Assembly (NCBI GenBank): GCA_947461145.1 | Contig: CANHJD010000007.1 | Coordinates: 1-38,105, forward strand | Length of the DNA stretch: 38,105 nucleotides | Direction of reading: 5' to 3' | From: Bacteriovoracaceae bacterium | GTDB lineage: Bacteria > Bdellovibrionota > Bacteriovoracia > Bacteriovoracales > Bacteriovoracaceae | Shown here: positions 4,828-29,860 of the stretch, one piece after another | Numbering within the stretch: the stretch's first letter is position 1 | How the letters are laid out: each line of letters starts with the position of its first letter | Notes under the pieces: generated by a model | Seen by the model: only the letters and a program-made list of their open reading frames with translations | Database searches by the model: none | Told to the model about the DNA's origin: nothing | Position numbers and translations under genes: made by a program

Positions 4828-5396
4828 GACCTAGCCTTCCAAAGTATTTCTATGGATCCAGATTTTTTATTAACGTATCTTGCAAGAACAAAAAGATAGT
4901 CCGAAAGTCTGTTAAGAAAAATGATACTCAAATTAGGCAACTCTTCTTTCGTTAAATGTTCATAATGCACAAATCGTCTTTCAACAGATCTAGCAGAAGT
5001 TCGGGCCAAATGCACGGCAGAAGAAACTAAGGCCCCTCCAGGAAGAATAAAGTTTTTCAAAGGCTCTAAAAACTCGTCCATTCGATCTATTTCGGCTTCC
5101 ATTTCAGAAATAAACTCTTCACTCAATTGAGGCAAATTAAAATTTGCCCTATTTTCAAACTCACACGCCATATTTGAACCAAGATCAAAAAGACATGACT
5201 GAATAGTATGGATAAAATCAATTTCAGATTTAAATTGAACATCTAGAAGGGAGCAGGCAAATCCAATCCTTGAATTTAACTCATCAAGTTCACCGTAAAG
5301 GTCAATGCGCAAATCTGACTTAATGATTCTATTTCCACTCACGAGACTAGTCTCACCTTCATCACCAGTCCGAGTATAAACCTTAGATTTTTTCAT
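4824..5396 (-). CDS. Cob(I)alamin adenosyltransferase, PduO/MMAB type
   Basis: KVYTRTGDEGETSLVSGNRIIKSDLRIDLYGELDELNS...R(S)VERRF. Confidence 0.92.
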   Translation of the reverse strand: MKKSKVYTRTGDEGETSLVSGNRIIKSDLRIDLYGELDELNSRIGFACSLLDVQFKSEIDFIHTIQSCLFDLGSNMACEFENRANFNLPQLSEEFISEMEAEIDRMDEFLEPLKNFILPGGALVSSAVHLARTSARSVERRFVHYEHLTKEELPNLSIIFLNRLSDYLFVLARYVNKKSGSIEILWKARS

Positions 5397-8300
5397 TACA
5401 TATTCCTTCTATAACGTCCGCCGACCTCATAGAGAACTTCAGTTATCTCGCCTAGGCTACAATAACGTACAGTCGACATGAGTTGTTCAAAAATATTACC
5501 ACCAGAGAGCGCAACATCTCTTAGCTTTTGAAGACTTAATCTGGAATTATCTTTATGTTTCAGTTTGAATTCAGTTAATCTCTTAATTTGATCATCTTTT
5601 TCATCACCTGATGATCTGGAAAGCTCTATTGGCTTCCATTCTTCGAACTTTTCTGGAAGATACGTATTCACTCCAATGATAGGATATTCCCCAGAATCCT
5701 TCATTGTTTCATAATAAAGTGATTCCTCCTGAATCTTTCCTCTCTGATACATGGACTCCATTGCTCCTAGAACTCCACCTTTGTCAGAAATCCTCTCAAA
5801 TTCATTCAGGACAGCCTCTTCAACAAGCTCTGCCAGCTCATCAATAATAAATGAACCTTGAAGAGGATTATCCGTTTTATTTAGGCCATATTCACGATTA
5901 ATGATTAACTGAATGGCCATTGCTCTTCTCACTGATTCTTCTGTTGGAGTCGTAATGGCTTCATCGTAAGCATTTGTATGAAGGGAATTGCAGTTATCCG
6001 AAAGGGCGAGAAATGCTTGAAGGGTCGTTCTTATATCATTGAAGTCAATTTCTTGGGCGTGTAAAGAGCGACCAGAAGTCTGAATATGATACTTTAATTT
6101 TTGTGATTTTTCTGAGGCACCATATTTTTCTCTCATCGTGACGGCCCAGATTTTACGGGCAACTCTACCGAGAACAGAATATTCTGGATCTAAACCATTC
6201 GAAAAAAAGAAGGAGAGATTTTCACAAAACTCATCAATTTTCATACCACGACTCAGATAATACTCAACGTAAGTAAAACCATTTGAAAGAGTTAGTGCTA
6301 GTTGAGTGATCGGATTGGCCCCGGCTTCAGCGATATGGTAACCAGAAATTGAAACAGTGTAATAATTCTTAATCTTGTGTTTACAGAAAAACTCTTGAAC
6401 ATCCCCCATCATTTTGAGGGCAAATTCTAGTGAGAAAATGCAGGTGTTTTGTGCTTGGTCTTCTTTAAGAATATCGGCCTGAACAGTTCCACGTACCTGT
6501 TGCATCACAGAAACCATCTTATCCAGTTTTTCCTGTTCATTTTCAGGCAGGGCCCTATTAATTGCCGTATTCATAAACATAGCAAGAATGATGGGAGCAG
6601 GACCATTAATGGTCATAGAGACAGAGGTCGAGGGTGATGTTAAGTCAAAGCCGTGGTAGAGCTCCATCATATCTTCAAGAGTACAAATAGAGACTCCAGA
6701 CTCCCCAACTTTACCAAAGATATCTGGTCGCTTGGCCGGATCCTCTCCATAAAGAGTAACTGAATCAAAAGCCGTAGAAAGTCTTTTGGCGGCATCATTT
6801 TTTGAAAGATAGTGAAAGCGAGCATTTGTTCTGTGAGGTCCGCCTTCCCCAGCGAACTGCCTTTTTGGCTCCTCATCGGCGCGCTTAAAGGGGAAAACCC
6901 CTCCCGCAAAAGGAAAGAATCCTGGCAAGTTTTGTGAGCGGATAAATTTATACTTCTCTGAAGTATAGTGAATTTTAGGAAATCCTACTTTTGAAATTTC
7001 CATCTGTGAAAGTGAGCGATGTTTTGTTGGGACACTCACATCTTTTCCGCGCACCTGGTAGGTAAATTCTCCGCGAGAATATTGATCAATAATGTTATCA
7101 AATTCTTCAACTTCTTTAAGTTGCGGGACTAGTTGATTTTCTAGAGAGTTCAGTTTTATTGATAATGACGAACTATCAGTCACTACTTTTGAAGCCTCTG
7201 CAAGGCTTTCGTAGAGACGAAGTTTTTCAACTGAGATCAATGTGTGGTTATTATAATCTTTAACATTATCAGCAATATCTCTTAAGTAATTAATTTTTGA
7301 GGCAGGAATGATGGCATGTTTCTTCTCCGGTGCTCTCTCTGAAGGAATCTTGTCGATTTCAGGATTGTGAGAAAAATTGATTGCCTTGGCCATTTCCTTG
7401 AAAAGAGCATTTACTCCAAGATCGTTAAATTTAGAGGCCATTGTTCCAAAAACTGGCAGCTCACTATCTTCGGGTGAGCCTGGATGGTTAGCAAAAAGCT
7501 GCCTATTTCTTCGGTACTGCTTGCGAACATCCCTTAGGGCATCTTCGCTTCTTGGCTTTTCATACTTATTGATGGCAATAAAATCTGCAACCTCAAGCAT
7601 TTCAATTTTTTCAAGTTGAGTAGCAGCTCCAAATTCTGGAGTCATAACGTAAAGAGTTTTATCAGCTACTTTTGTTATTTCATCAGACGCTTGACCAATC
7701 CCAGAAGTTTCAACAAGGATGAGGTCAAAATTTTGAGATTTTAAAAACTCGACAACTTTTTTAATTTCTGGAGAAAGCTCATTCTCCGAGCCTCTCGTTG
7801 CAAGTGAGCGAACATAAAAATTTTCAAACGAGGCGGAACCTAGTCGTATACGATCACCAAGTAGGGCACCTTGAGTTTTTTTCTTTGTTGGATCAACAGA
7901 GATGAGAGCAATCTTTTTTTCTTTGTAATAACGATGAAAACGAAGAAGCAATTCATCGATGAGTGATGATTTACCAGCTCCACCAGTTCCTGTGATACCA
8001 AAGACGGGAATATTTTTTGCCTTAATTTCAAATGGAAACAGACCATTATCTTCGATATAGGTGATGACTTTTGCGATCTCATTTACAGTTAAGGTTTTCT
8101 CTTTTAATTTTTTAAAATCAATATTATCAATTGTAGAAAAATCGCATTTATTAATCATGTCATCGATAATGCCATTTAAGCCAAGCGAGGTCCCATCATT
8201 AGGGTGATAGATGCGGGTAATCCCTCTTTTATGAAGCTCTTGAATTTCTGGAGGTGTAATAACTCCACCGCCTCCCCCAAAAATACGGACATTATCGGCA

Positions 8301-8551
8301 CCATTTTTATTTAATAGTTCTCTGACATAAGTGAAGTACTCCATATGCCCACCCTGATAGGAACTAAGGGCAATGGCATGAGCGTCTTCTGAAAGAGCAG
8401 CTTCCACTACTTCCTGCGCCGAACGATTATGGCCCAGATGGATAACCTCAACCCCTTTGGCCTGTAAGAGCCTGCGCATGATATTGATTGAAGCATCATG
8501 ACCATCAAAAAGACTGGCCGCCGTGACAAAACGTAATTTTCTGGTGTTCAT
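5396..8551 (-). CDS. icmF: Fused isobutyryl-CoA mutase (B12 domain + MeaI-type GTPase + mutase)
   Basis: B12-binding DGHDASINIMRR; P-loop GITGTGGAGKSS; mutase segment RPDIFGKVGESGVSICTLEDM; ~1050 aa architecture. Confidence 0.92.
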   Translation of the reverse strand: MNTRKLRFVTAASLFDGHDASINIMRRLLQAKGVEVIHLGHNRSAQEVVEAALSEDAHAIALSSYQGGHMEYFTYVRELLNKNGADNVRIFGGGGGVITPPEIQELHKRGITRIYHPNDGTSLGLNGIIDDMINKCDFSTIDNIDFKKLKEKTLTVNEIAKVITYIEDNGLFPFEIKAKNIPVFGITGTGGAGKSSLIDELLLRFHRYYKEKKIALISVDPTKKKTQGALLGDRIRLGSASFENFYVRSLATRGSENELSPEIKKVVEFLKSQNFDLILVETSGIGQASDEITKVADKTLYVMTPEFGAATQLEKIEMLEVADFIAINKYEKPRSEDALRDVRKQYRRNRQLFANHPGSPEDSELPVFGTMASKFNDLGVNALFKEMAKAINFSHNPEIDKIPSERAPEKKHAIIPASKINYLRDIADNVKDYNNHTLISVEKLRLYESLAEASKVVTDSSSLSIKLNSLENQLVPQLKEVEEFDNIIDQYSRGEFTYQVRGKDVSVPTKHRSLSQMEISKVGFPKIHYTSEKYKFIRSQNLPGFFPFAGGVFPFKRADEEPKRQFAGEGGPHRTNARFHYLSKNDAAKRLSTAFDSVTLYGEDPAKRPDIFGKVGESGVSICTLEDMMELYHGFDLTSPSTSVSMTINGPAPIILAMFMNTAINRALPENEQEKLDKMVSVMQQVRGTVQADILKEDQAQNTCIFSLEFALKMMGDVQEFFCKHKIKNYYTVSISGYHIAEAGANPITQLALTLSNGFTYVEYYLSRGMKIDEFCENLSFFFSNGLDPEYSVLGRVARKIWAVTMREKYGASEKSQKLKYHIQTSGRSLHAQEIDFNDIRTTLQAFLALSDNCNSLHTNAYDEAITTPTEESVRRAMAIQLIINREYGLNKTDNPLQGSFIIDELAELVEEAVLNEFERISDKGGVLGAMESMYQRGKIQEESLYYETMKDSGEYPIIGVNTYLPEKFEEWKPIELSRSSGDEKDDQIKRLTEFKLKHKDNSRLSLQKLRDVALSGGNIFEQLMSTVRYCSLGEITEVLYEVGGRYRRNM

Positions 8552-11046: not shown

Positions 11047-11769
11047 TTATCCTTTCTCTAACTTGATGAATTTATTATTTAAAATAAGTACAAACCCCAT
11101 AAAAATTAAACCAATGGAGATCCATTGTGATGGGGAAAGCGCACCCCATTGTCCCCTTATGTCATCTCCTCTGAGAAACTCGATGAGTATTCTTATGCCC
11201 CCGTATGAAACAAAATAAATAGGCAGAACAAAAGAATCCTTAACTTTCTTAAGGATTACTAGACCCATTATCAAGAGAAGAAAACTTTCGAATAGTTGCG
11301 TTGGATGTCTGTGAACACCTTCAATATTTATGGCCCACCACTTATCTGTAACTTCTCCAAAGCAGCATCCTGCCAAAAAACATCCCAGTCTACCAATAGA
11401 ATGGCCAAAAATTGTAGCAAGAATTAAGGCATTCAGAGATTTGAGTGTTAGGGGAAACTTAAACGATCTATAAAAAATTAGGTATATTAAACCAAAAAGG
11501 AATCCACCATAAAAAACAAATCCTCCGCCTGTCCAAAAGGTTGACTCTGATAGGACACCTATTTCGATTTTGTTGGAGTTAAAAATATAAAGTAATTTAG
11601 ACCCAACCCAAGATAAAATAAAAAGTCCCCAAAAAAGGAGGTTTTTGAATTTTGTGGGAATGTCAGAAATTGAAAAAAATATCTGATGACCCACCCCCCA
11701 ACCTAGACCCATGAGGAGTGGGTAAGAATAAATGATGAAATCTTTATTTTGGTAAAGAATTGGAAGCAT
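11047..11769 (-). CDS. lgt: Prolipoprotein diacylglyceryl transferase
   Basis: GRLGCFLAGCCFG Lgt signature; HPTQLFES; start chosen at MLPILYQNKDFIIYSYP. Confidence 0.92.
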   Translation of the reverse strand: MLPILYQNKDFIIYSYPLLMGLGWGVGHQIFFSISDIPTKFKNLLFWGLFILSWVGSKLLYIFNSNKIEIGVLSESTFWTGGGFVFYGGFLFGLIYLIFYRSFKFPLTLKSLNALILATIFGHSIGRLGCFLAGCCFGEVTDKWWAINIEGVHRHPTQLFESFLLLIMGLVILKKVKDSFVLPIYFVSYGGIRILIEFLRGDDIRGQWGALSPSQWISIGLIFMGFVLILNNKFIKLEKG

Positions 11770-12274
11770 GCTCTCCATTTGCAGCAAGTTTTTTTGCTTT
11801 TAATTGTATAAAGAAATCGATGATGAGAAGTCCAGCGGCTACAGTAATGCAACTGTCAGCTACATTGAATGCAGGAAAATGGTTTGCCTCTTCTTTCCAA
11901 TAGAAAAGAAGAAAGTCCACAACGTACCCAAGGGAAAATCGATCAATCAAATTTCCAACAGCTCCAGCAATAATTAGGGCATAGGCCGTTGATAAATAAA
12001 GAGGCCCCTTGATCGTTTTTATCAGCATATAGAAAATCCAACCGCAAAAAATTACTGGAAGAGCGAGAAACATAACCTGTCTAAAGATTTCATGTGCACC
12101 TGCACCGAAGCCAAAAGCAGCACCAGTATTTTTGACATAAGCAATACTAAAAAATCCATCTATCACTGGTATTGATTGACCATAATAGAGAGATGATTGA
12201 ATTGCTCCCTTTGAAAGCTGATCAATAATTATTAATGTAGCCATAATAAGGCAGAGAGACCAAAATCGCGCCAT
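11744..12274 (-). CDS. lspA: Signal peptidase II
   Basis: YVKNTGAAFGFG, GAVGNLIDR, VVDFL, FNVADSCI motifs. Confidence 0.95.
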   Translation of the reverse strand: MARFWSLCLIMATLIIIDQLSKGAIQSSLYYGQSIPVIDGFFSIAYVKNTGAAFGFGAGAHEIFRQVMFLALPVIFCGWIFYMLIKTIKGPLYLSTAYALIIAGAVGNLIDRFSLGYVVDFLLFYWKEEANHFPAFNVADSCITVAAGLLIIDFFIQLKAKKLAANGEHASNSLPK

Positions 12275-12282
12275 AAATTTTC

Positions 12283-13785
12283 CTAGTAATAGTCTTTAGG
12301 ACTTATTTCATATTTTTCAATTTTACGAAGTAACGTTTTCTTAGGAATATTTGCATTTAATGCTGTCTGATTAATACGCCCACGATTTATTTTAAGCGCC
12401 TGAACAATAAATTCTTTTTCAAATAAATCTTTTGCCAAGGCAAAATCTAACTTCCCACCCTCTCCCACTTTAGTTCCAAAGGAAAAGTGAACTTCATTTG
12501 AATTAGAAGATTTTGCTGTTGGAGCATCAAGGACAGAATTCTGAATATCCGCAAGATCAATAACACTATCAGTAGTAATCTGGTCTTTAGGCTCAACTTT
12601 CTTTTGATCTTTGAAAACAATCGCCGGCAATGAATTTACATGAATCATGTCAGATGATTCCATAATAAAACAATGCTCGATTATGTTTCTGAGTTCACGA
12701 ATATTTCCTGGCCATGAATAGTTAGTTAAAACCTCAAGGGCCTCTGGCTCTGCTCCGCCAACTTTAAGATTATGAACATTATTAAAATAATTTATGTAAT
12801 GATTCACAAGATGAGGAATATCCGTTTTTCTCTCCCTCAGTGGAGGAAGATAAACTGGTAGAACATTCAAACGATAAAATAAGTCTTCCCTAAAAGTCCC
12901 TTCCTTGATCATTTCTTCAAAGGGCTTATGAGAAGCTGCGATTATTCTTACATCTACTTTTATTTCTCTATTTGATCCAACAGGCATAAAAGTTTTTTCT
13001 TGCAGGACTCTAAGTAATTTAACCTGCATAGCCGCTGAAATATCTCCAATTTCATCTAGAAATATTGTGCCACCTTCAGCGAATTGGAATTTGCCTATTT
13101 TCCTTTGATCAGCACCTGTAAAAGCACCTTTTTCATGGCCAAATAATTCCGACTCAATCAAGTTTTCAGAAATCGCTCCACAGTTAATTGTGACAAATTT
13201 CTCATCTTTTCTTGGTGAATTATAATGGATCGCTTTAGCGACCAATTCTTTACCTGTTCCAGATTCTCCACGAATTAAAACAGGTGTATTAACTTTTGCA
13301 AGTTTTGAAATGACATCAAAAACCTTTTTCATGGCCGTTGATTCACCAACAAACTTATCTTTTGAAGTCGAAGTTTCACCAATTGAAAGAGTTGGAGATG
13401 AAAAACCGACGGTTTCCACCATTGATCTTGCTTTGAGGGCTCTCTTAATGAGAGCTACCAGGTTTTCAGAGGTGATTGGTTTCTCAAGATAGTTATAGGC
13501 ACCTTCTCTCACGGCCTTTACAGCGTCACCAACATTTGAATAAGCGGTAAGAATAAGAACAATAACAGAGGAATCATGCTTTTTGATTTCTGAGAGGGCC
13601 TGTATCCCGTCCATCTCAGGCATGTTTACATCCATAACAACGAGATCATATTTTTTGCCGTAAACTTTATTTACAGCTTCCTTACCATTGTCAGCAACAT
13701 CTACCACAAAATGATGATATTCCAGGGCCTGTTTTACCGATTGTTGTAAAACCTTATCATCATCAACCACTAAAACCTTATGCAT
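12283..13785 (-). CDS. NtrC-family sigma-54-dependent response regulator
   Basis: Receiver domain VVDDD..VMDVNMPEMDG; AAA+ GESGTGKE, GAFTGA; C-terminal Fis-type HTH. Confidence 0.95.
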   Translation of the reverse strand: MHKVLVVDDDKVLQQSVKQALEYHHFVVDVADNGKEAVNKVYGKKYDLVVMDVNMPEMDGIQALSEIKKHDSSVIVLILTAYSNVGDAVKAVREGAYNYLEKPITSENLVALIKRALKARSMVETVGFSSPTLSIGETSTSKDKFVGESTAMKKVFDVISKLAKVNTPVLIRGESGTGKELVAKAIHYNSPRKDEKFVTINCGAISENLIESELFGHEKGAFTGADQRKIGKFQFAEGGTIFLDEIGDISAAMQVKLLRVLQEKTFMPVGSNREIKVDVRIIAASHKPFEEMIKEGTFREDLFYRLNVLPVYLPPLRERKTDIPHLVNHYINYFNNVHNLKVGGAEPEALEVLTNYSWPGNIRELRNIIEHCFIMESSDMIHVNSLPAIVFKDQKKVEPKDQITTDSVIDLADIQNSVLDAPTAKSSNSNEVHFSFGTKVGEGGKLDFALAKDLFEKEFIVQALKINRGRINQTALNANIPKKTLLRKIEKYEISPKDYY

Positions 13786-13794
13786 GGAAAACTC

Positions 13795-15666
13795 CTATTC
13801 ATTCTTAAGCTTAATTATAAACGCAGTTCCCTCTCCTAGGTGAGAGGTTGCAGAAATGACCCCGTTATGAAGTTCGATAAAATATTTTACCAGATAAAGG
13901 CCCAAACCAGAGCCTTTTATCGAATGGGTTGAGTCATTTTTCACCCGATAAAATTTATCAAAAATATAAGTCAAATCGTCTTGCCCTATTCCGACCCCAT
14001 TATCCTTAACTTCTATATATACCCAGTCAGGATCGTCCCAAGTCTTTATCCAAACAGTTTTGCCCTTACCAGCATACTTTATAGCATTTTCAATTAAATT
14101 CGAAATAACCCTATTCATTAGTACGGTATCTACCTGAATTGGATAAAGAGGGGATAATTCCGTTTCAATAAGCATTTGCTTTGAAGTAGCTTCAAATTGT
14201 AGCTTTTCAACTATACCTTCTATAATTTTATTAATGTCTTTTGATTCTTTTTTAAGTGTCAGGTTCTGGGATTCAATCTTTGTTAAATCTAAAATTGAAT
14301 TAATAAAATTATTTAGTTCTTTGGTCGAATTTAGAACATTATCAATAAGCTCCGTTTGCTCGGCCGTATTATTAAATTTGATCTTCAATATGTCAGCAAT
14401 ACCCGTTATTTTTGCAACAGGTGTTTTTAGATCATGACTCATGAGTGAGATAAAATTCTGTTTCAAGTTATCGACTTGTTTCAGTAATTTTGTTTCTTCT
14501 TGAATGGCATATCTTCGCTGATATTCTTCAATCGCCCGAAATGGGACCCAGATATAGTAGACCACGAAAATACTCAATACGACATGTGAGAGCTTAATCC
14601 ACCATCCAAATGAAACAAAAAGCACATAGCTTAAAACGAGGATTCCAATAATCATGACTATCGTCAGAATTAATCCTTTAACTGGCTGAACACGGGATAT
14701 AAAAGACGAAAGGATAAGAGCAATAATCAGGGAGGCAATTTGAGTGTAGATATCAGGAATTTCTAAAATTGTTTTTTCACCTGCAAGTGCCTCAATCACA
14801 TGAGCATGAACAGCTAATTTGGGAGTCGTAGGGATATCTTTTTCAAAAGGTGTGAGGACAAAATTATTAGCATTTGAAGTATATCTCGGCCCTACCAAAA
14901 CGATTTTATTTTTAAAAAATCCCTGTGGATAATTACCTGTTACAACTCGATAAAAGGGAATTGAGTTAACCGAGCCGGAATTTGGATTACCCGAATATTT
15001 AAATAAGGCAAAGTTTGCATCTGCACCAGTGCTATAAGTATGGCCTTGATAAGAATTTGCATCCTTCGGAGAGAAGCTTTGGAACTCCCGAATTTTTTTT
15101 GCGGCCCAAAGATGGATGGAATCATCACCTGAAATGTTTAATATTGCCCTTCGAACAACATCATCTTTAGCAAAAACTTGTTGATCTATATGAAGCTGAC
15201 CCAGATGATAGCCCACATCTCTCAAGCCCTCAGGGGGAATTTGTTCTCCAAAATTATCTAGTTCCGTTGCAAATTTAAATTTATTTCCATCAGGAGAATA
15301 ACTTCTTATTGTTTCTCGAAATTGGTTTAGATAGCGCAATTCTATGTCTGAATCTGGTTCAAACAAAGATACAAAATATCCAACAAGCAATGGCTTTTCT
15401 TCAGATATTCGATTCATTAATCTTGAATGTGAAGCATATGAATAAGGAAAGGATTCACCTAAAAATTGATCTGTTTCGACATCCAAAGTCACAAGCACAA
15501 TCGGATTTTTTAGATTTCTTGAAGTAAGATCACTCTTAATAAGAAAATCATAAAATATAGATTCAAGAGGACTAAAAGAGTATTGAATTAATATAGTGAT
15601 AAAAGCAAGAGTCACCAGAAGTGGTGCAAATTTTGAAAACTCAATCGATTTTAATTTACTAAACAC
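13795..15666 (-). CDS. CHASE2-domain sensor histidine kinase
   Basis: N-terminal CHASE2-like periplasmic region, TM segments, LMSHDLKTPVAKI H-box, GVGIGQDDL, GSGLGLYLVK. Confidence 0.9.
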   Translation of the reverse strand: MFSKLKSIEFSKFAPLLVTLAFITILIQYSFSPLESIFYDFLIKSDLTSRNLKNPIVLVTLDVETDQFLGESFPYSYASHSRLMNRISEEKPLLVGYFVSLFEPDSDIELRYLNQFRETIRSYSPDGNKFKFATELDNFGEQIPPEGLRDVGYHLGQLHIDQQVFAKDDVVRRAILNISGDDSIHLWAAKKIREFQSFSPKDANSYQGHTYSTGADANFALFKYSGNPNSGSVNSIPFYRVVTGNYPQGFFKNKIVLVGPRYTSNANNFVLTPFEKDIPTTPKLAVHAHVIEALAGEKTILEIPDIYTQIASLIIALILSSFISRVQPVKGLILTIVMIIGILVLSYVLFVSFGWWIKLSHVVLSIFVVYYIWVPFRAIEEYQRRYAIQEETKLLKQVDNLKQNFISLMSHDLKTPVAKITGIADILKIKFNNTAEQTELIDNVLNSTKELNNFINSILDLTKIESQNLTLKKESKDINKIIEGIVEKLQFEATSKQMLIETELSPLYPIQVDTVLMNRVISNLIENAIKYAGKGKTVWIKTWDDPDWVYIEVKDNGVGIGQDDLTYIFDKFYRVKNDSTHSIKGSGLGLYLVKYFIELHNGVISATSHLGEGTAFIIKLKNE

Positions 15667-16498
15667 GGCCTTCCAATTTTTCGTTGAATATCAAATCCCA
15701 CTCATGGGGTAAAAACTCTAGTGTAATAATGCCCTGATAATGACTACTCTTATGCAAAGAGGATAACTCAATTAGCTTCTTACTTGGAAGAGAGTATATC
15801 TCATCAGGACGAGTGAGCTTGGAACTAACATCCATGAGTAGTTTATTTTCAACAGGATATTCTTTTAAAAAAAATTCGAGTTTATTAAAATATTTTTTTC
15901 CCATCAAAAGTGCATAGATAAGATCAATCCAGGGGTGAATCATAAAATAAACTAATCCATTTAAAGCCGCTTTAACGTCTTTTATAGGAATAAATTTAAT
16001 CACCAAATTAACCATCATTTGGAATATCCAGGTGATCATTCCAACAAGAAATAAAACTTTGGTTCTCTTACTTGCCATATTCTTTTTCACCTGAAGTAAG
16101 AGTTCAAAACATATGGCCGAAAGCTCTTCTTTTGTGCAAATGTCTAAAAGACCCTTGCTGACAATCAATCCAATATCTCTTCTTTGCTGAATGACAAAGG
16201 CCCTCTCCAGTGCCCCGTTATAGAAATATAATTTTGGAATTGTTACCCCTAGCTTGTACGCCTCCTGGATGGCGGCAGAATGAAAAGCCGCCTCCTCGGT
16301 GCTCTTTACCTCACGGGCGCCCAGAAAAACGAGGATGGCGATATCCATATAACCCACGGTAATTAATGATATAAGTGCTAAAATAGTCAGTCCACAGACT
16401 AACCAAAAGCCCGAAAAAGCAAACCAAGTACTCAATGTGGTTAAGGCAAAAAGGCTGATTAAAAATAAGGAGATACGCATACTTAGTTTTCCATTCAT
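15659..16498 (-). CDS. Membrane protein resembling an HtpX/M48 peptidase with lost HExxH motif
   Basis: Two N-terminal TMs, then DIGLIVSKGLLDICTKEELSAICFELLLQVKKN aligned by eye to M48 'GLLxxLxxxELxAVLAHExxH', then two TMs as in HtpX. Confidence 0.5.
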   Translation of the reverse strand: MNGKLSMRISLFLISLFALTTLSTWFAFSGFWLVCGLTILALISLITVGYMDIAILVFLGAREVKSTEEAAFHSAAIQEAYKLGVTIPKLYFYNGALERAFVIQQRRDIGLIVSKGLLDICTKEELSAICFELLLQVKKNMASKRTKVLFLVGMITWIFQMMVNLVIKFIPIKDVKAALNGLVYFMIHPWIDLIYALLMGKKYFNKLEFFLKEYPVENKLLMDVSSKLTRPDEIYSLPSKKLIELSSLHKSSHYQGIITLEFLPHEWDLIFNEKLEGRV

Positions 16499-28622: not shown

Positions 28623-29492
28623 TTACATAGCCTGAGTTTGTTCAAAATTAAATGTCTGGGCTTGCTCTTCACCTTGCTCCATCATCCCTTGTTCCTGTGC
28701 GATCATATCTTGATTCGCAAAGTTTTCTGGCTGACTCATCTGATTCTCAACCGGCTCATTATCCGTTTCAACAACTTCCGCTACTTGTTCCTGTCCTTGG
28801 GCGGCTTCTGTATTTTCCGCTAATGTCATTTGAGATTGTTGAATTTGTTGTTCTTGTTCAACTGATACTTCACCAACAAATGTCAGTCGAGTTCCTTCAA
28901 GTGGGCCATTTGTCAGAGAGACTGAATAGGAATTTTCTCCATTCTGATACATCATCCCACTATAGAGCTCACCTTCAAAATCATATTCAAACACGTTCCC
29001 TGTCATTTCTGAAAAAGAAACAGAGATTCCCTCACCATTAGGAAGTGATACGGATAAGCTTTCAATAACTCCATTATTAGTTGCTAGATTTCCATTGAAT
29101 TGGGAGCTATTTAAACCTTGTTGCCATTTTTTGGGATTTATTACTTCAGTTAAATTCAAATTTAATGCTTCTGTCACTGCCGCTTGTGAGACCTGCACAA
29201 CTTCATTTGAAGATGAAGAGGTGTCTCCGGATTGTAAATTGCGATCTACTTGATTCGCCTTATAAGCAGCTGCCTGATTGACTGATAATTTCTGCCAATT
29301 CAAGGATGCTGCAACTTCACGCTTAGAAACCACCACGCCATAGACTTCATCAAGTCTTTTAGCAAACTTCACCTCAGATCCGGTGATACCTGATTCTGAA
29401 TTTATAACCACAGCATTATAAGTGCCTGTGACCACCATAAATCCAATGGCAAATCCCGCAGCTATCTGTTTTGAGTTTTGTGACCATTTCAT
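28623..29492 (-). CDS. Uncharacterised exported/membrane-anchored protein with Gln/Glu-rich C-terminus
   Basis: N-terminal hydrophobic segment AAGFAIGFMVVTGTYNAVVI; low-complexity QEQQIQQSQ...MIAQEQGMMEQGEEQAQ tail; SD AGGGG. Confidence 0.75.
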   Translation of the reverse strand: MKWSQNSKQIAAGFAIGFMVVTGTYNAVVINSESGITGSEVKFAKRLDEVYGVVVSKREVAASLNWQKLSVNQAAAYKANQVDRNLQSGDTSSSSNEVVQVSQAAVTEALNLNLTEVINPKKWQQGLNSSQFNGNLATNNGVIESLSVSLPNGEGISVSFSEMTGNVFEYDFEGELYSGMMYQNGENSYSVSLTNGPLEGTRLTFVGEVSVEQEQQIQQSQMTLAENTEAAQGQEQVAEVVETDNEPVENQMSQPENFANQDMIAQEQGMMEQGEEQAQTFNFEQTQAM

Positions 29493-29522
29493 AAATTACC
29501 CCTAAGCTTTTCTTAGTATTCA

Positions 29523-29537
29523 GCAAAGGGAGTGCCA
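29523..29537 (-). promoter_or_regulatory. Sigma-54 promoter, TGGCAC-TCCCT-TTGC
   Basis: Exact match to TGGCAC-N5-TTGC, placing +1 about 19 nt upstream of the 29492 ATG. Confidence 0.8.
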
Positions 29538-29642
29538 ATTTTGATACGGTTAATCCTCGGATTTTGTATAAAAAATATATAATAAGTGATGAATTTCTTA
29601 AAAAGTGTCAAAAATTTAGTCAATTTGAGGGAAAAGAACAAA

Positions 29643-29668: not shown

Positions 29669-29860
29669 TTATTCAGTCATTGGAACTTGTTTTAAATAGT
29701 CGGCATGGGATGATCGAAATCTTTTAAGAGCGATGACAACTAACTCATCTATCGTAAAATTCGTGTTTTTAACCATTTTTTCAAAATCTTCGACAACGTC
29801 CTTTTCAATTTTAACTTTAATCTCTTTCAATTCACCCTGATTGTGTTTTTGAGATTTCAT
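29669..29860 (-). CDS. Small ribbon-helix-helix-like protein
   Basis: KEIKVKIEKDVVEDFEKMVKNTNFTIDELVVIALKRFRSS is RHH-like (strand then two helices). Confidence 0.55.
   Translation of the reverse strand: MKSQKHNQGELKEIKVKIEKDVVEDFEKMVKNTNFTIDELVVIALKRFRSSHADYLKQVPMTE

Follow-up and report, generated by a model that had tools for sequence, protein, structure and literature searches.

The closest known architecture to the one described here appears to be that of glmY in Escherichia coli, where TGTC-N10-GACA sites for the enhancer-binding protein GlrR/QseF lie upstream of the promoter together with IHF (PMC6075780, PMC8745638). FleQ reads a palindrome with a similar beginning, GTCAAT-N2-ATTGAC (PMC10723142), and on a broader scale sigma-54 has been regarded as a controller of the bacterial exterior, acting through precursor synthesis and transport, in a study from which Bdellovibrio was absent (PMC3162934). 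Our searches of the open-access literature turned up no account of a sigma-54 regulon in Bacteriovoracaceae. The locus presented here, from a contig stretch of 38,105 nucleotides of a Bacteriovoracaceae genome (the window), is read as a further case of a known arrangement, namely a sigma-54 promoter with an enhancer and a probable IHF site. Its features, all on the minus strand, are as follows:

29606..29622, minus strand, candidate upstream activating sequence TGACTAAATTTTTGACA, 85 nt before the -24 element
29551..29563, minus strand, IHF-like site AATCCGAGGATTA, 26 nt before the -24 element, with one mismatch to WWTCARNNNNTTR
29523..29537, minus strand, putative sigma-54 promoter TGGCACTCCCTTTGC, with -24 TGGCAC at 29537-29532 and -12 TTGC at 29526-29523
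29499..29503, minus strand, ribosome-binding site AGGGG
28623..29492, minus strand, gene of a class-specific exported protein of 289 aa

An earlier note on this DNA had proposed that the minus-strand string TTGGCACTCCCTTTGC (29538-29523) matches TGGCAC-N5-TTGC exactly, with a +1 about 19 nt from an ATG preceded by AGGGG. The match is indeed exact and is the only one in the window (the mean of shuffled sequences being 0.04). Counted from the -12 C at 29523, the predicted +1 falls at 29511, which gives a predicted 5' UTR of 19 nt before the ATG at 29492, with AGGGG (29503-29499) in between. In the whole 2.65-Mb genome, which encodes rpoN, there are seven exact copies of TGGCAC-N5-TTGC against none of the reversed pattern, and 22 copies of TGGCAYN5TTGCW against one. 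By eye, the gene is flanked by two hairpins, one terminator-like and following a small upstream ORF, the other common with etfA, so the gene looks monocistronic. The small ORF (63 aa, window 29669-29860), whose hairpin lies just upstream of the sigma-54 gene, is by eye perhaps a ribbon-helix-helix protein.

Homologs were collected by family search, by genome scan and by search for genomic place; those of the records that carry names are Halobacteriovorax, Bacteriovorax and Bacteriovoracaceae. A near-consensus -24/-12 site precedes 59 of the 61 homologous ORFs, its TGG starting 34-68 nt before the start codon, while its five spacer bases vary freely; two homologs have no clear site. Among 186 other ORFs of the same loci only one reached the score threshold and none the higher threshold. 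The promoter was likewise present in 10/10 homologs outside the set from which the motif had been defined, and where the block is syntenic in other genera, it holds no sigma-54 site but the one preceding this gene. The invariant GG and GC of a sigma-54 promoter, at their fixed spacing, are found at 29523..29537. Perfect 10-base matches do arise by chance in genomes, and some of the 22 genomic sites have no gene downstream, as would be the case if the string were fortuitous and the gene used another promoter; however, retention of the site across the homologs with a changing spacer, set against its near absence from the other ORFs, makes this explanation extremely improbable.

Reading of the aligned upstream regions of the homologs revealed a palindrome, TGTCTAA-N3-TTAGACA, present with up to two mismatches in 35 of 58 distinct regions (0.08 expected) and with up to three in 49 of 58 (about 1.2 expected); these counts, as for the IHF-like consensus below, were first made in the same sequences in which the motif had been noticed. 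In homologs outside the motif-defining set, 9/10 carry the palindrome within three mismatches. Helical phasing of the enhancer distances, with a period of 11-12, was suggestive and not significant on distinct distances. The earlier note had advised a search for NtrC-binding palindromes upstream of 29537, and this does yield a candidate at 29606..29622, albeit a degenerate one: with two mismatches it is not above chance by its letters, and we credit it for its position, 85 nt as in relatives. The same palindrome stands 85-89 nt before four other sigma-54 genes of this genome, one of them a paralog with 49% identity. The upstream enhancer expected of a sigma-54 promoter is thus represented by the palindrome of the homologs and by the class-wide composite pattern described below, the window copy being degenerate.

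Between palindrome and promoter lies the WWTCARNNNNTTR element, which occurs with at most one mismatch in 45/58 homologous promoter regions as opposed to about 11 expected, and only at 25-27, 36-38, 48-49 or 58-61 nt, that is, in steps of approximately 11 nt or about one helical turn. The element is looser than the E. coli IHF consensus, and among the IHF genes of the genome IHF-alpha scores above the curated cut-off and the IHF-beta-like candidates below it. It is probably a DNA-bending site, and a candidate for binding by IHF. Since the -24/-12 site, the candidate palindrome and the IHF-like site are all conserved class-wide, the reading that a sigma-54 promoter drives this gene is strongly supported by comparative sequence data, and the original promoter call seems right and better backed than the single sequence could show. 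The resemblance to glmY extends to inverted TGTC...GACA enhancer sites, the probable part played here by IHF, the -24/-12 promoter and an envelope theme. Unlike in glmY, the class consensus spacer is 9 rather than the 10 of the GlrR/QseF regulon (TGTC-N10-GACA), one clear enhancer site is seen instead of three, and the target is a protein gene, not a small RNA.

The predicted product has the following parts:

29400..29486, minus strand, N-terminal membrane anchor, residues 3-31 (AlphaFold2 helix; hydrophobicity)
28872..29165, minus strand, small beta-barrel, residues 110-207 (AlphaFold2, pLDDT mostly above 90), with invariant G134, F168 and G179
28626..28805, minus strand, acidic Q/E-rich disordered tail, residues 230-289 (low pLDDT; composition)
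28644..28655, minus strand, C-terminal TFNF motif, of the form [FYH]-x-F

The membrane anchor and beta-rich middle of which the earlier note spoke are borne out by AlphaFold2, which models, in order, the helix 3-31, a disordered stretch, eight strands over 110-207 with high confidence, a further helix and a disordered, low-confidence tail; modelled alone, the barrel reaches pLDDT 83 and pTM 0.72. Sequence and model both support an exported, membrane-anchored protein, which we infer to be periplasmic, with the N-terminal helix fixing it to the inner membrane. The extreme Q/E-richness claimed for the tail applies to the window protein (42% Q+E in residues 210-289); it is not conserved, as Q+E makes up 9-40% of the last 65 residues across homologs. 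What the homologs do share is an acidic, low-complexity tail, and an aromatic-x-Phe motif ([FYH]-x-F) within 28 residues of the C terminus in 46/58 of them, compared with 2.2 expected from shuffled tails. We suggest, with considerable doubt, that this motif docks on an envelope partner, making the protein an envelope adaptor or sensor produced on demand.

Scans of 58 family members against Pfam and NCBIfam gave scattered weak matches only, a profile search of solved structures (PDB) gave no match, and Foldseek returned no significant match for either the whole model or the barrel alone; the family is new to the libraries searched. The best Foldseek matches were lipocalins and neisserial surface barrels, many with probabilities of 0.9-1.0, and the antiparallel meander barrel of about 100 residues is indeed shared with lipocalins, fHbp and NHBA, which could indicate that the ligand of this protein is a small lipid or a cell-wall component and not another protein. 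Yet the E-values of these matches were 0.005-0.16, the TM-score was about 0.4 at best, Pfam, NCBIfam and PDB offered no sequence match, and the membrane anchor and acidic tail are extra to those barrels; no significant fold or sequence match places the protein in the lipocalin/calycin superfamily, and we consider a ligand-binding barrel unlikely.

Of 129 class genomes, 114 have the family (70/73 when only good genomes are counted), and the 240 genomes sampled from elsewhere in the phylum all lack it; within the sampled phylum, it is found throughout the class and is absent outside it, as befits a class signature. Loss of rpoN was ruled out as the reason for the missing gene, since 13 of the 15 gene-less genomes have rpoN; the two without it are at most 72% complete. 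Other genera keep the gene order around 28623..29492 over 20 kb, from which we take the window copy to be the class-wide locus and the paralog (G000:C185:1356-2123) to be the duplicate seen in the genus, where two gene copies are usual. This paralog, with 49% identity, has a perfect enhancer palindrome and a sigma-54 promoter of its own.

The composite of enhancer and promoter (TGTC-N9-GACA, 50-80 nt, TGGCAY-N5-TTGCW) was then sought in 125 genomes of the class, with the reversed pattern as control, and 89 listed matches were obtained against one for the control. About 21 of these 89 belong to the present gene family, as judged by coordinates and a profile check, and the rest to other genes. 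Exported-like hydrophobic starts were found in 55 of the 69 readable downstream genes of the fetched loci, in comparison with 10/35 window genes (p = 1e-6), the export call being a crude hydrophobicity rule and the background of 35 genes small. Half of the non-exported targets (7/14) belong to a single recurring family with a length of about 500 aa. This protein without signal peptide, the main non-exported target, stands behind the composite promoter in L228, L265, L268, L271, L275, L277 and L283. An exported peptide of about 60 aa (CPMMREMN-type) occupies the same position in L269, L270, L272, L274 and G000:C16:21296 (L071); it recurs in several genomes, this one included, and a family match was not found for it.

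Among the sigma-54 genes that share this enhancer across the class and mostly encode exported proteins, 28623..29492 is the most widely retained one found. Named members of this bacterial family prey on other bacteria. It is conceivable, although we would put this well below an even chance, that a single enhancer-binding protein of the class controls, through sigma-54, a whole regulon of exported proteins, among whose targets this class-specific membrane-anchored protein is the most conserved. Such a regulon would amount to a dedicated switch by which the predator turns on its envelope and secreted tools at some step of its predatory cycle. The dominance of exported and envelope proteins among the composite-promoter genes agrees with the exterior-control view of sigma-54 (PMC3162934), whereas the targets here, unlike in that study, are mostly unknown exported proteins. 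What makes the finding interesting is the enhancer shared across the class, together with its exported targets. The conserved enhancer offers a precise handle, in that mutating a single regulator should silence a definable group of proteins, most of them exported and most of them unknown, at the head of which stands a gene that almost all class members retain and that is absent from the rest of the phylum sample. Which proteins mark this lineage's mode of life, and which signal deploys them, can through this handle be put directly to the test.

Two genes of the window bear on the identity of the activator:

12283..13785, minus strand, response-regulator-type enhancer-binding protein (GAFTGA, PF00158), one of three candidate activators
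13795..15666, minus strand, CHASE2 sensor histidine kinase, adjoining the enhancer-binding protein

The GAFTGA-containing NtrC protein of the earlier note is real, and its proposed role as activator is plausible; on the other hand, two further enhancer-binding proteins are equally universal. All three (the window's, a FleQ-like one and a third, whose ortholog adjoins CoA carboxylase) are reciprocal best hits in 10/10 genera. The 15-kb proximity of gene and regulator reflects the conserved synteny of the whole block and was rejected as evidence. Autoregulation of the three core enhancer-binding proteins, considered as a clue to the activator, gave no lead, as no consistent palindrome was found near the three genes.

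That the palindrome is bound by the window response regulator, driven by the adjoining CHASE2 kinase, has in our estimate a little less than an even chance. This protein is 72-80% identical across the 10 genera, with an invariant recognition helix, and is the enhancer-binding protein of the genome most similar over its length to E. coli GlrR (43% identity over 378 aa, about 24% in the C-terminal part), which binds TGTC-N10-GACA with IHF (PMC8745638, PMC6075780); moreover, the lipoprotein-processing genes lspA and lgt come after it. Its link to the gene, however, belongs to the 20-kb syntenic block, its helix PKKTLLRKI is unlike those of FleQ or GlrR, readers of GTC...GAC sites, and no palindrome lies near 12283-13785. 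The minus-strand arrangement at window 11047-16498 has the CHASE2 kinase and the NtrC-type regulator directly upstream of lspA and lgt.

The FleQ-like protein (G000:C115, L092) has an invariant helix, NRTTLIEK, close to the RRTTLVEKM of FleQ, whose box resembles GTCTAA-N3-TTAGAC in that both half-sites start with GTC, and its ortholog in another genus (L212) adjoins flgBC-fliEFG. If it were the activator, the gene would be co-regulated with motility. The half-site nevertheless differs from that of FleQ, as does the spacer (3 instead of 2), and the targets are mostly exported, not flagellar: the flagellar cluster of L212 has no strict-pattern sigma-54 site, and no flagellar gene is among the identified sigma-54 genes of the present genome. 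We regard this candidate as possible but somewhat doubtful. Also next to flgBC-fliEFG, and near the FleQ-like activator, L212 encodes a short protein with PF00158 (L212:4563-5504, about 315 aa). Its copy in the present genome (G000:C44:5218-5682) is devoid of GAFTGA, which suggests that it is a degenerate or a regulatory partner.

Whichever activator is concerned, the computed features (promoter, conserved palindrome, phased IHF-like site, class restriction and export bias) would fit a scheme in which the enhancer-binding protein occupies the palindrome (29622-29606) as a dimer, a bend introduced by IHF at about 29563-29551 brings the activator to the closed complex, and ATP hydrolysis by the activator opens this complex, so that RNA polymerase with sigma-54 transcribes the gene from the -24/-12 promoter at 29537-29523. 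The product would be periplasmic, tethered to the inner membrane through the N-terminal helix, and would have a small beta-barrel as well as an acidic, flexible tail ending in aromatic-x-Phe. We consider this scheme as a whole, with a sigma-54 promoter, enhancer and IHF driving a membrane-anchored periplasmic protein of a class-wide set, to be highly probable. Elsewhere in the window (5396-8551), B12-binding, MeaB GTPase and methylmalonyl-CoA mutase domains are fused in a single protein.
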